This document shows positions 30,615 through 36,678 of a stretch of 36,941 bases of DNA, in pieces. A program made the position numbers and the translations under genes. Below the pieces are notes generated by a model that saw only the letters and a list, made by a program, of their open reading frames with translations, did no database searches and was not told the origin of the DNA. Source of the DNA: an uncultured Bacilli bacterium (GTDB lineage Bacteria > Bacillota_I > Bacilli_A > RFN20 > CAG-449); the NCBI GenBank assembly GCA_947627505.1, contig CANQWG010000009.1:1-36941 (forward strand), in the 5' to 3' direction. Within the stretch, counting starts at the first letter, position 1, and every line of letters begins with the position of its first letter.

Positions 30615-32919
30615 TATCATTTTAAGCGGGGTTTTTATTACAACTTTTATAGTATCGCTAGGAATTGGTACTTATGTTTTTTATACTGTTAAAGACTTAT
30701 CGACGCCACAAATTGAAAAATTAATCGAGCAGAAACACACTCGTATTTACGATTCTTCTTCTCGTCTTATTGAAACTTTGGGAGAAGATAAAGCCAAACT
30801 TGTAAAGTACGAAGAGTTACCTCAAACGTTGATTAACGCTTTAATCAGTATTGAAGACGAGCATTTTTTTGAACATCATGGTATTAATTATTCGCGAATA
30901 CTTTATTCGGCTTTCAATAATTTATTTTCTTCTAACGCACGACAAGGCGGTTCCACGATTACGCAACAATTAGTAAAAAATTTACTTTTAACTTCAGAAA
31001 TCTCGTTATCTCGAAAAATTCAAGAAGCTTATCTTGCTTATCAATTAGAACAAATGATGAGCAAAGAAGAAATATTGGAACAATACTTTAATCGCATTTA
31101 TTTTGATGCAACAATTCAAGGTGTTGGTTATGCTTCATACCGCTTTTTTAATAAAAGCGTTGATTTATTAACTCTGCCGGAATGTGCGATTTTGGCAGGT
31201 GTTGTAAAATCTCCTTCTTTATATTCTCCTTTTAAACATATTGAAGAATGTAACAATCGAAAAAATCTTGTGTTAAATGCAATGCTTAACAATCATTATA
31301 TAACCGATGAGCAATATCAATTAAGCGTTAAAAAACACGCAAAAGATCTCGTGATTGAAAAAGGATCTAATTATCAAGAAGAAACATATGATTTTCAAAG
31401 TTATCTAGATGTGGTATACCGCGAAACTAAAGAATTAACTGGCCTTAACCCTTTTTCGGTAGCTTTGGATATCGAAACATATCTCGATACTTCAGTACAA
31501 TCTTATATAGATGGCATTCAATCAGGAACGAATTTTACTTTTGATGATGAAAACCAACAAGCAGCTTTAGCGGTAATCGACAATCAAAATCAGGCTTTGA
31601 TTGGTCTTATGGGTGGACGAAACTATGAAGGACAAATGTTATATAACCGCAGTTACGAAATGCAAAGGCAACCGGCTTCAACAATGAAACCGATTTTTAC
31701 ATACGCTTTAGCCATGGAACATCTCCATTATAATGAATTAAGTGCCGTTATCGATGAACCATACACTTATCCAAATACATCGATCACAGTGCAAAATGCC
31801 GATAAACAATATTTAGGTAAAATCACTCTTCTTGATGCTCTCGGTTATTCAAGAAATACTTCAACTCTTTATACTCTTGAAAAAGTTATTGCAAAAATCG
31901 GCGTCGATAAAGCGATACAATATCTTAAAGATATAGAAATTATGGACGAAGGAGAATTTACTTATCCTTATGCAATCGGCGGCATGAAATATGGCGTCTC
32001 GCCGATTCAACTTGCCGGAGCTTACGCAATGCTTGCAAATAATGGATCATACGTAAAACCCTCGACCATAAAAAAAATTACCGATCAAGAAACCGGGAAA
32101 ATCATCTACTCTCGCGATTTACAGGGAAAACAAGTAATTTCAAAAGAAGCCGCCTTAACGATGACGAGTGCTTTAACAAGAATGATTGATCAAAATTACT
32201 ACAACATCGCTTTAGCAAAACCATCTAATGTTACAATCGCTGGCAAAACCGGAACCAACGCTTATGACTCAAATGTGAGAGCTCGCTATAACTATCCTTC
32301 TAATGCCGATCGTGATGTTTGGTTTGCTGGTTACTCACCTTCACATACAATCGCCGTATGGACTGGATTCGATGAACCAAAATTAGGTGAAAAAAACTAT
32401 TTTGGTTACAGCGACTCACGTCGATTAGTAGCTAAAAAATTATTTAAGAATGTGATGGAAAAAATATCTAGCAAAAACAAAAGTTTCAGTTACGAAGCTA
32501 ATCTTCAAAAAGTTGAAGTGGTCAAAGGTCTTGACAAATTTTACTTGCCTAATTCCCTTGTTCCTTCACAATTTATTTCCTATGCTTATTTTCGCAAAGA
32601 AGAAGTTCCTTATGAAACACTTCCCACTCCGGAATTTGACGTTTTAGATAATCTCAATGTCAATTTCTTAAATAATTCAATATCGATTTCAATTTTAAAT
32701 GAATTAAAAGAAGATGAGATTTACACTACTTTTTTTGGCAATCGTGGTTATCTTTTTAAAATAAAAACCCTCGACGAAGAATACGAAATCTTTGTTGAGG
32801 GATATAACTTAGAATTACAGGAACTACCAGAAGAAATCGAATCCATTGAAATTTACGAAACTTTTAAAAACAATCATAATCTTCATGGCGAGCCTTACAT
32901 TTTAACTTTCTTTTTATAA
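30589..32919 (+). CDS. ponA: Penicillin-binding protein 1A (class A)
   Basis: EDEHFFEHHGI, GGSTITQQLVKNLLL; STMK, SRN, KTGT; overlaps recU by 26 nt. Confidence 0.95.
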   Translation: MKRKKSIFNIILSGVFITTFIVSLGIGTYVFYTVKDLSTPQIEKLIEQKHTRIYDSSSRLIETLGEDKAKLVKYEELPQTLINALISIEDEHFFEHHGINYSRILYSAFNNLFSSNARQGGSTITQQLVKNLLLTSEISLSRKIQEAYLAYQLEQMMSKEEILEQYFNRIYFDATIQGVGYASYRFFNKSVDLLTLPECAILAGVVKSPSLYSPFKHIEECNNRKNLVLNAMLNNHYITDEQYQLSVKKHAKDLVIEKGSNYQEETYDFQSYLDVVYRETKELTGLNPFSVALDIETYLDTSVQSYIDGIQSGTNFTFDDENQQAALAVIDNQNQALIGLMGGRNYEGQMLYNRSYEMQRQPASTMKPIFTYALAMEHLHYNELSAVIDEPYTYPNTSITVQNADKQYLGKITLLDALGYSRNTSTLYTLEKVIAKIGVDKAIQYLKDIEIMDEGEFTYPYAIGGMKYGVSPIQLAGAYAMLANNGSYVKPSTIKKITDQETGKIIYSRDLQGKQVISKEAALTMTSALTRMIDQNYYNIALAKPSNVTIAGKTGTNAYDSNVRARYNYPSNADRDVWFAGYSPSHTIAVWTGFDEPKLGEKNYFGYSDSRRLVAKKLFKNVMEKISSKNKSFSYEANLQKVEVVKGLDKFYLPNSLVPSQFISYAYFRKEEVPYETLPTPEFDVLDNLNVNFLNNSISISILNELKEDEIYTTFFGNRGYLFKIKTLDEEYEIFVEGYNLELQELPEEIESIEIYETFKNNHNLHGEPYILTFFL

Positions 32920-33539
32920 TATTTACAATATCTTGTAAGTTTACAAACATCACACATCGGTTTTTGGGCCTTACAATAATATCGACCAAAATGAATAAAT
33001 TGATGATGTGTTAAAATATATCTTTCAGTTGGAAAAAGTTTTTCTAATTTTTGCTCAACTTGCAATGGCGAAGCATTTTCATCGACAAGTTCCAATCTTT
33101 TGCTGATTCTTTCCACATGAGTGTCAACGGCAATATGAGGTTCTTTAAATAACTCGGCTAAAACCACATTAGCGGTTTTTCTTCCCACTCCCTTCATTTC
33201 AACTAAAAGATCACGAGAATTAGGAACCTTTCCATCATAGTTTGAAAGTAACGAATTAGCGATTGCCTTAATATTACAAGCTTTATTTTTAAATAATCCC
33301 AAAGGCTTTATAATCTTTTCGAGTTCCGCTAAAGGAGCATTTTTTAATGCTTCTAAAGTCGGGAAGCGTGAAAAAAGTAAAGCGGTAACCGCATTAACTT
33401 TTTTATCTGTCGTCTGTGCCGAAAGCATCACTGCAATCAAAAGTTCATAATCTGAATGATAAATTAATTCGCAACTGGCATTCGGTAAAATTTCATCGAA
33501 ATATTCGATAATTTGAGCAATCTTATTATTTTTCATCAT
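32895..33539 (-). CDS. nth: Endonuclease III
   Basis: HhH LVEMKGVGRKTANVVLAE, catalytic VDTHVERI, [4Fe-4S] CKAQKPMCDVCKLTRYC. Confidence 0.95.
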   Translation of the reverse strand: MMKNNKIAQIIEYFDEILPNASCELIYHSDYELLIAVMLSAQTTDKKVNAVTALLFSRFPTLEALKNAPLAELEKIIKPLGLFKNKACNIKAIANSLLSNYDGKVPNSRDLLVEMKGVGRKTANVVLAELFKEPHIAVDTHVERISKRLELVDENASPLQVEQKLEKLFPTERYILTHHQFIHFGRYYCKAQKPMCDVCKLTRYCKYYKKKVKM

Positions 33540-34179
33540 CAGTCCAATGGTATGAGGCAATATCAATCGCTTTTCCAATATCGTTTTTATGACGTTCGTC
33601 GATAGTGGAATATCCTTCTTTTTCACGATCATTATGTATTAAACGTTTTAATAAAATTTTATCAACTAAACGAACCGTAACTTTTTTATTTCGCATAGCG
33701 CACTCTTCAAGCGCGGAAAGGATGGATTGATCGTCGATACCTGATTGAATCCATTCCATAATTTTGTCGATATCGAGACGCGTTAAACTAGAGCCAATCG
33801 CAGTTTCAAAAGCCGTGAAGATATTTTCTTTTTGCTCTTCGTTCAAAGAATGTTCGCTTTTTCGCCGATCTTCAATAGAAGCAGTATAAAAAGCTTCGAT
33901 CTTTTTAAAGGTAGGTTCTAAAGAAGTTACCATTTGATCGTTTTTAGTCGCATATTCAATAAAACCTTTATCGATTAATTCGACAATTAACTGATCGATT
34001 TCTTTTTCTCCAAGCGACATTTTTAAAGCCAAAGTATCCGCGGTTACCAATATCGCATCATGTCTAAGAATATTGTCAATCGACAATATGATCATCACTT
34101 CATTTTCGTTTAAACCCAAATATTTGTATCGATCAATTAAGATATAACGATAATCTAACTCCTGTATAGTTGCCATCAT
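33526..34179 (-). CDS. dnaD: DNA replication initiation protein DnaD
   Basis: N-terminal winged-helix and C-terminal DDBH2-like segment (SSLTRLDIDKIMEWIQSGIDDQSILSALEECAMR); upstream of nth. Confidence 0.88.
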   Translation of the reverse strand: MMATIQELDYRYILIDRYKYLGLNENEVMIILSIDNILRHDAILVTADTLALKMSLGEKEIDQLIVELIDKGFIEYATKNDQMVTSLEPTFKKIEAFYTASIEDRRKSEHSLNEEQKENIFTAFETAIGSSLTRLDIDKIMEWIQSGIDDQSILSALEECAMRNKKVTVRLVDKILLKRLIHNDREKEGYSTIDERHKNDIGKAIDIASYHWTDDEK

Positions 34180-34228
34180 AATTTTCACCTTATCAAAATT
34201 ATAAAAAAAAAGTGAGCAAACTTAAATC

Positions 34229-35872
34229 TTATTTACACACTTTTTTAAATACTCGTAAAAAGTTTTTATAGAAAATTTTTTCAATTTCATCTTCTTTGAA
34301 ATTTTCCGTTTTCAATCGTTCATATAAAAGGTTCATTTTTGAAGCATCGCTTAATTTTTCCGGAGTGTCGATTCCATCAAAATCACTTCCTAAAGCAATC
34401 GCATTGATACCGGCAATAGCCTTAATATGATTTATATGATCTACAATTAATGATAAATAATCATCAGATGGTTTATTTTTTACAAACTTCTCACAAAAGT
34501 TAATTCCGATAACCCCACCTTTTAAAGCAATCTTTTTTATTAAATCATCGCTTAGATTACGCTGGTTAGGTGATATGGAAAAAGCGTTAGAATGAGAAGC
34601 GATAATCGGATCTTTTGAAATATTAAGCACATCTTCAACAACTTTATGCGAGCAATGTGAAATATCGATAATCATCCCTAATTCATTCATTTTTTTCACT
34701 ACTTCTTTTCCAAATAAAGTTAATCCTTGATAATTTTTTGAAATATTGTTTTCTTGGCTAATATCGTGTGCCGGATATCCGATTTCATTAGGATAATTCC
34801 ATGTTAATGTCATACTCCGACATCCACGTGCATAAAGTTTTTCTAGTTTTGATAAATCTCCTTCGATGATTTCTCCGCCTTCAAGAGTTATTAAGGCCGC
34901 TATCTTTTTCTTTGCCACGATTTTTAAATAATCGTCATAACAAGTGACTTTTTCAATCACACTATTATTTTCAAGTAATTCGTTTTCAAAGTTATCAAGG
35001 TAAACTTGAGCTTTATTGTAAAGATCTCCTTCGGTTTTTTTAATAAATAAGGCGAAACATTGTAAGGTGTAATGACTCTGCATCATTTTATTTAAATCGA
35101 GGTGAAGGTTATTTTTTATTAGTTTTTGTTTTTTGTCTTTAAGTGATGTCAATGTATCGCAATGCATGTCCACAAGAGCAATTGGATTAAGAACTTGACA
35201 TAATGGAATTATTTCATCGAGTTTTAATCTCTGCCATTCATCAATAAAAAGTTGAAAATATTTATTGTCTACTTTTTTAGCTTCTTCAAGAATCTTTGCA
35301 AAGGATATTTGCTTTAAGAAAATCTTTTGTTTTGAAATCGCCTGTTCAAGAGACAAATCATAGGTCAAATCCTGAGTTGTTTTAAATCTAATCGCCCTTA
35401 CAATTCGTAACGGATCTTCGTGCAAACGAATATCTGGGTTACCTATCATTTTCAAGTTTTTGTTTTTTAAATCAGCTTTTCCGTCATAAAAATCATGCAC
35501 CTTCATCTCGTGGTCTAGATAAAGTGCATTAATTGTGAAATCTCTTCTTTTAGCATCTTCTTTTAAATCTTTAACAAAGCGAACATATTCTGGATGGCGA
35601 AAATCTTTATAATCTCCTTCAACTCTTAAAGTAGTAATATCAACTTTTCGTTTATGCCAAATTAATGAAGTGCTTCCGAATTTTTGATATTTAGCAGTGC
35701 AGTTTGAAAACATCTCTTCAATTTTTTCCGGCAAAACATCGGTCACTAAGTCAAGATCTTCAATTGGACGATCACTTAAAAAATCTCGCACAGCACCACC
35801 AACAAGGTAAAGGTTTGCTCCGTGAAGTTTAAAAATTCCACTTATTTCCTTAAAAATATCTAGTTCACTCAT
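34229..35872 (-). CDS. Fusion: CCA tRNA nucleotidyltransferase head/neck + peptidase M19 (membrane/renal dipeptidase)
   Basis: N-term: LVGGAVRDFL, DLDLVTD, RRDFTINAL, EDPLRIVRAIRF. C-term: VDMHCDTL, ITLEGGE, IDISHCS, IIASHSN, LGSDFDGID. Confidence 0.9.
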   Translation of the reverse strand: MSELDIFKEISGIFKLHGANLYLVGGAVRDFLSDRPIEDLDLVTDVLPEKIEEMFSNCTAKYQKFGSTSLIWHKRKVDITTLRVEGDYKDFRHPEYVRFVKDLKEDAKRRDFTINALYLDHEMKVHDFYDGKADLKNKNLKMIGNPDIRLHEDPLRIVRAIRFKTTQDLTYDLSLEQAISKQKIFLKQISFAKILEEAKKVDNKYFQLFIDEWQRLKLDEIIPLCQVLNPIALVDMHCDTLTSLKDKKQKLIKNNLHLDLNKMMQSHYTLQCFALFIKKTEGDLYNKAQVYLDNFENELLENNSVIEKVTCYDDYLKIVAKKKIAALITLEGGEIIEGDLSKLEKLYARGCRSMTLTWNYPNEIGYPAHDISQENNISKNYQGLTLFGKEVVKKMNELGMIIDISHCSHKVVEDVLNISKDPIIASHSNAFSISPNQRNLSDDLIKKIALKGGVIGINFCEKFVKNKPSDDYLSLIVDHINHIKAIAGINAIALGSDFDGIDTPEKLSDASKMNLLYERLKTENFKEDEIEKIFYKNFLRVFKKVCK

Positions 35873-36509
35873 CAAGCGTCGTCCTCAATCCTTCAAATAA
35901 TCCGATATTTTGCAAAGCTTTTTTAACTCCTTCAACATATGCATGTTTGTCTTTAATTTCATGAATCATCGTCAATGAATCATTTTCATTATCAAATATT
36001 ATATCATGGCGATAGACAAAATCGTCACCTCGAGAGGAAATTATCTTTATCTTTTCATTTCCTAAGAGGTTTTTCAATAAAATCGCTGTCCCTGAAGGAA
36101 TATCTTTTTTTGATTTATGATGACGTTCCTTAATAGTAATATTAGCACCAGGTTTTAAGATTTCTAGACATTTAACCAATCGCCAAAAGGAAAGCGAAAA
36201 ATTGTAAACTAAGTAGGCAGAAAGATGATTGTCTTTGGCAGTACTGTTTATTAAAGATATTTCAAAAGGAAGCAGCCCTGTTGTTCCAGAAATAAAATGA
36301 ATCCCGTTTGTTAAACATAATAAAGCACTTCTTAAACATTCATGTCGTTCAGTAAAGTCAATTACAACATCGTGTGGTCTTTCAATCAATCTTTCGATTG
36401 TCAAAGGATTTTCTTTATCATAACCATAAACCAAAAAAGATTCTTTTAAGTCCTCATAGATTAGGCTTCCCATTTTTCCTTTAAAACCATTGATACCAAT
36501 AATCATCAT
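35865..36509 (-). CDS. dapB: 4-hydroxy-tetrahydrodipicolinate reductase (short form)
   Basis: GINGFKGKMG, VVIDFT, GTTGL, IKERHHKSKKDIPSGTA. Confidence 0.9.
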   Translation of the reverse strand: MMIIGINGFKGKMGSLIYEDLKESFLVYGYDKENPLTIERLIERPHDVVIDFTERHECLRSALLCLTNGIHFISGTTGLLPFEISLINSTAKDNHLSAYLVYNFSLSFWRLVKCLEILKPGANITIKERHHKSKKDIPSGTAILLKNLLGNEKIKIISSRGDDFVYRHDIIFDNENDSLTMIHEIKDKHAYVEGVKKALQNIGLFEGLRTTLDE

Positions 36510-36562
36510 TATCACCTAATCAACTATATGATTAAATAAAATCGATATTACCAAAAATTATA

Positions 36563-36602: not shown

Positions 36603-36678
36603 GGGTGTTTAGCTCAGCTGGGAGAGCATCTGTTTGACGTACAGAAGGTCGGCGGTTCGATCCCGTCAGCACCCACCA
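36603..36678 (+). tRNA. tRNA-Val (GAC), CCA encoded
   Basis: Cloverleaf: acceptor GGGTGTT/AGCACCC, anticodon loop TTGACGT in TCTGT/ACAGA stem, GGTTCGATCC T-arm, genomic CCA. Confidence 0.97.

Follow-up and report, generated by a model that had tools for sequence, protein, structure and literature searches.

Can a tRNA CCA-adding enzyme and a dipeptidase be two halves of one protein, and if so, what does each half contribute? The question is raised by a gene in a 36,941-nucleotide contig of an uncultured Bacilli bacterium (CANQWG010000009.1, assembly GCA_947627505.1), the whole of which we call the window. A continuous open reading frame occupies positions 34229–35875 of the reverse strand, where all features lie unless noted otherwise; it encodes 548 amino acids from a TTG start or 547 from the ATG at 35872 (34229–35872, stop included). 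We number residues from this ATG, which has a Shine-Dalgarno-like AGGA 10–13 nt upstream (35882–35885). The initial annotation, made without database searches, described a nucleotidyltransferase fused to an M19 dipeptidase, and the motifs that it named for both are indeed all present in one continuous frame. Profile searches matched both a PolyA_pol head and a full-length Peptidase_M19 domain.

The head (35453–35812) is a PolyA_pol nucleotidyltransferase domain with GGAVRD, DLD, the flexible-loop residue R92 and RRDFTIN, and matches the Pfam profile over residues 22–141 (E = 1e-34). The neck helices (35228–35452) carry the nucleotide-template motif EDPLR at residues 152–156 (about 35405–35419). 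The GG, DxD and RRDxxxN motifs and flexible-loop Arg of the head, together with the EDxxR template of the neck, are features of class II CCA enzymes. A short linker (35186–35227; LDEIIPLCQV..), in which DxxIP or DxxLP is conserved in the family, leads into the M19 domain (34241–35188). Residues 230–545 match positions 4–319 of the 319-position Pfam profile for this domain (E = 4.6e-94; 315.6 bits versus a cut-off of 26), and the five metal ligands (H237, D239, E331, H406 and H427) are all present, as are the conserved R438 and D497. We built an AlphaFold2 model from an alignment in which the window protein was combined with GTDB contig proteins. Each domain is complete and folds with confidence (mean pLDDT 95.0, pTM 0.76); the placing of the head and neck relative to the M19 domain is less certain than either domain alone.

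Both halves have known counterparts. By sequence, the N-terminal part matches the class II enzyme of Bacillus stearothermophilus (1miv) up to residue 202, and Foldseek superimposes the modeled head and neck on 1miv with an rmsd of 1.9 over 201 columns. The fusion shares with this enzyme and that of Planococcus halocryophilus (6qy6) the head and neck motifs, the fold, the EDxxR template and the flexible-loop Arg, but has neither body nor tail and instead carries the M19 dipeptidase after the neck. For the C-terminal part, the structures matched are renal dipeptidase and Listeria monocytogenes Lmo2462 (3lu2, 3neh), a member of peptidase family M19. The whole domain aligns with Lmo2462, with the same zinc ligands and LTWN at the same place, and the modeled domain matches 3lu2 with a TM-score of 0.92 by target; Lmo2462, however, is a standalone protein, whereas the fused M19 sits C-terminal to a nucleotidyltransferase. 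Renal dipeptidase DPEP1 (1itq, 9h0b) is the best PDB sequence match for residues 321–546 and has the catalytic residues in common with the fusion, except for His152. DPEP1 is a membrane-anchored ectoenzyme; the fused M19, unlike it, lies inside a protein that begins with an RNA enzyme.

The missing half of the nucleotidyltransferase is evident from the NCBIfam profile for CCA tRNA nucleotidyltransferases (PRK13299), to which residues 16–230 align at positions 17–232 of 396. Because the alignment stops there, the protein lacks what in a normal enzyme would be the C-terminal ∼165 positions; the score of 203.4 bits is under the equivalog cut-off of 290. We searched the genome (1.38 Mb in 60 contigs, 96.6% complete) family by family and found one PolyA_pol head and one M19 domain, both within the fusion gene. 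It contains neither PF12627 nor PF13735, the families that in standard enzymes cover the stretch after the head and the C-terminal part; in two control genomes from the class, PF13735 was found. Within the completeness of the draft, there is therefore no separate gene with a detectable body or tail domain, which bears out the earlier observation that these domains are missing. Nor is there a second, full-length cca. The gene lies at the cca–dnaD–nth locus that is conserved in the order, with dapB upstream, and being the only gene of its type in the genome, it fits its earlier description as probably this organism's cca. Downstream lies dnaD (33526–34188), followed by nth, encoding endonuclease III (32895–33632); upstream, dapB (35865–36515) overlaps the start of the fusion gene. 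DapB is short (216 amino acids), yet both of its Pfam domains are detected.

The two halves appear to be made as a single polypeptide. In-frame GTG and ATG codons occur at the junction, and separate translation of the M19 half from such a start had been judged unlikely for want of a Shine-Dalgarno sequence. Among 14 fusion genes, none has a Shine-Dalgarno-like match of at least four bases before the in-frame starts near the M19 HxD motif, and all 14 have one at the start of the gene. We therefore rejected separate translation of the M19 domain, and the gene reads as one polypeptide.

The window comes from a 60-contig draft, so an assembly error or frameshift joining two neighboring genes had to be considered. 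The same fusion is present in 15 of the 18 genomes of the family, comprising every genome of genera g1, g3 and g4, always at the cca–dnaD–nth locus; dnaD and then nth follow every fusion gene, and dapB is the upstream neighbor in g1. Fourteen of the 15 fusions are 40–93% identical over their full length, and the remaining one (genome G006, genus g4) has a degraded C-terminal half. An arrangement shared by 15 separately assembled genomes down to ∼40% identity cannot be put down to chance or to chimeric assembly, and we regard an artefact as refuted and practically inconceivable. Purifying selection acts on both halves: a comparison of three close g1 genomes gives dN/dS of 0.10–0.17 for the head and neck and 0.11–0.17 for M19. 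We saw no fusion outside the family, either in the matches listed from 394 class genomes or in the top 80 GTDB loci. The gene is thus a true, vertically inherited fusion. The initial annotation knew of no described fusion of these activities, and the papers that we searched, a set outside which most of the subscription literature lies, likewise describe neither a CCA–M19 fusion nor a tail-less CCA enzyme. In the GTDB collection, five loci with the fusion are labelled, for instance, as uncultured bacteria of the Bacilli, Bacillales or Erysipelotrichaceae, and the names of the isolates point to gut samples; the family probably inhabits the gut.

Did the dipeptidase replace the body and tail, as first proposed? 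The rest of the order argues otherwise. A listing of the stronger head matches from 279 genomes of the order places nearly all of those in its other families in open frames of ∼195–270 amino acids, and in nearly all loci with readable neighbors these head–neck-only genes occupy the cca–dnaD–nth position without an M19 domain. In the class's other families, the heads listed are found mostly in frames of 357–464 amino acids, as expected for a normal enzyme. Because head–neck-only genes without M19 occur at the same locus, the body and tail were lost before the fusion arose, and the proposed replacement does not hold. Head–neck-only CCA-type proteins of ∼200–250 amino acids (L021–L025, L027–L030, L075–L084, L137, L142, L144, L160, L163 and L164) are found across most of the order, mostly adjoining dnaD and nth and without body or tail. 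In domain content, those such as L021–L025, L027–L030 and L075–L084 correspond to the N-terminal half of the fusion, but they stop after the neck. The order-wide absence of the tail is arguably more notable than the fusion itself.

Standalone M19 proteins of sister families are ∼46% identical to the fused domain. An M19 gene could have come to sit in front of dnaD, downstream of a cca that had already lost its tail, and been fused to that cca by loss of the intervening stop codon, presumably in an ancestor shared by all four genera of the family or by three of them. Constraining the fusions to one clade is not rejected for either the head–neck tree (p-AU = 0.372) or the M19 tree (p-AU = 0.714). 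For M19 the constraint gives a better likelihood than that of the quick unconstrained tree; the head–neck tree has poor resolution and does not by itself group all the fusions together. A single fusion event is the simplest account, and there may have been more than one.

The two halves have had different fates within the family. D39, D41, R92, R109–D111, N115, E152, D153 and R156 are invariant in all 18 genomes, and the other nucleotidyltransferase residues checked are likewise conserved apart from a change of D78 to Glu in one g2 genome. When the human CCA-adding enzyme was selected in vivo for CCA repair, no substitute was accepted for Arg105 in the flexible loop or for the D or R of EDxxR, and hardly any for the E (PMC11784652). 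Judged by eye, R92 would be the counterpart of Arg105, and E152, D153 and R156 would form the template motif. All five zinc ligands are kept in 14 of the 15 fusions. In G006, whose fusion gene (L018:1495–2988) has an unbroken frame with an M19 remnant of ∼270 residues, the substitutions H237N, D239N, H406S and H427Y leave one zinc ligand of five, and R438 and D497 are lost as well. Its M19 half is only 42–44% identical to those of its sister genomes in the genus, which share 64% with one another, whereas its head and neck are 51–52% identical to theirs (56% between the sisters). No other M19 was found in G006, and none at all in the three g2 genomes.

The proteins of these g2 genomes (L032–L034 from G004, G007 and G010; 325–328 amino acids) consist of the head and neck followed by a different C-terminus of ∼115 residues. 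This segment matches M19 weakly (hhalign E = 0.027, probability 1.8%) and colinearly around VxxYDDYL, so that it is possibly a decayed M19 domain; g2 may have lost the domain or may never have had it. Because the M19 domain is dead in G006 and absent from g2 while the nucleotidyltransferase is intact in both, dipeptidase activity looks dispensable for nucleotidyl transfer. A single locus presents the partner domain in presumably active, dead and missing states, a natural experiment on what effect, if any, a fused domain has on its neighbor.

These observations are probably best explained by two largely independent activities that were joined by gene fusion on an unusual tail-less repair enzyme; both activities, and their independence, are predicted. 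The first ∼215 residues would form a class II nucleotidyltransferase without body and tail that repairs tRNA CCA ends, rebuilding the terminal nucleotides with CTP or ATP selected by the EDPLR template. The last ∼318 residues would form an Lmo2462-like zinc dipeptidase that cleaves dipeptides independently, the join providing shared expression without necessary mechanistic coupling, and this half appears to have since been inactivated in at least one lineage (G006). That the order's head–neck-only cca genes occupy the same locus indicates that the enzyme stands without M19. Against this reading count the poor resolution of the head–neck tree and the chance that a tail-less enzyme is weak or specialized; moreover, a purely passive passenger would not be required to keep an unbroken ∼270-residue M19 domain after losing its active site, as that of G006 has done. 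For this last reason we take seriously, although we consider it unlikely, the idea that the M19 barrel is mainly a structural or tRNA-binding part, substituting for the body and tail or serving as a dimerization platform, with dipeptidase activity secondary. The retention of a near full-length, catalytically dead M19 domain in G006 despite heavy divergence, the short and partly conserved linker, and the overall confidence of the model are consistent with it. A scaffold, however, does not need the full set of catalytic residues found in 14 of 15 fused M19 domains; moreover, the head and neck suffice in most of the order, and g2 manages without M19. With respect to the positive charge that RNA binding could call for, the fused domains are less acidic than distant standalone M19 proteins (Mann–Whitney p = 6e-5 for a mixed set in which one sequence is counted twice), but their charge range overlaps that of standalone M19 proteins from the same order, than which they are not clearly more positive. 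Should the barrel now belong to the tRNA repair machine, positioning tRNA or dimerizing the tail-less enzyme, which we think quite unlikely, the dead copy in G006 would be accounted for, and a metallopeptidase fold would have been recruited as the scaffold of an RNA enzyme.

It is doubtful, and in our view rather improbable, that the nucleotidyltransferase half has been repurposed, adding only A, acting in a poly(A)-like manner or using another RNA substrate. The missing body and tail, the failure to reach the CCA equivalog cut-off (203 of 290 bits) and the CCA already encoded in tRNA genes, which may make full CCA synthesis unneeded, would all suit such a change. Set against them, the CCA nucleotidyltransferase family is still the best match (203 bits versus 130 for pcnB), the flexible-loop Arg and EDxxR are invariant, the genome has no other head domain, and the locus is that of the order's other cca genes. 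Functional coupling of the two activities, for example regulation of tRNA 3′-end repair by peptide or peptidoglycan turnover, had been raised as a speculation. Only the fusion and its conservation in three genera speak for it, and we consider it very unlikely: the dipeptidase is dead in one lineage and absent from another that both keep the nucleotidyltransferase, no partner or regulatory element was found, and the cell-wall genes nearby (dapB and ponA) are common neighbors rather than partners. The proposed link thus found no support.

Under the favored reading of two independent activities, how would the enzyme work without its tail? In class II enzymes the head and neck make up the catalytic core, which includes the EDxxR template, and the body and tail are the tRNA-binding half that recognizes the acceptor and T arms (PMC3925840, PMC8563995). 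Because the body and tail normally bind tRNA, the tail-less enzyme might be weak or specialized, and it probably grips only the acceptor end. The nearby tRNA-Val(gac) gene (36603–36678, forward strand) encodes CCA, as do all 33 of the distinct tRNA genes checked in the same genome, 21 of 21 in G006, 18 of 18 in G010 (g2) and 18 of 18 in G268, which has a standalone head–neck gene. The enzyme therefore probably repairs tRNA ends rather than synthesizing CCA de novo, which may explain how the tRNA-gripping half came to be lost. Most members of the order lack body and tail but retain the catalytic core intact, and their tRNA genes encode CCA wherever this was checked; they offer a natural minimal enzyme and a chance to probe what the body and tail, regarded as the tRNA-binding half, are for.

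A few longer CCA-type genes also occur in the order, among them L026:1447–2601 (385 amino acids) and L031:619–2148 (510 amino acids, with an HD-type motif). Neither of these two adjoins dnaD, which would fit a possible replacement by horizontal transfer. In the window, the dnaD and nth frames as listed overlap by ∼107 bases (33526–33632), and the true start of nth probably lies further downstream than that of the listed frame.
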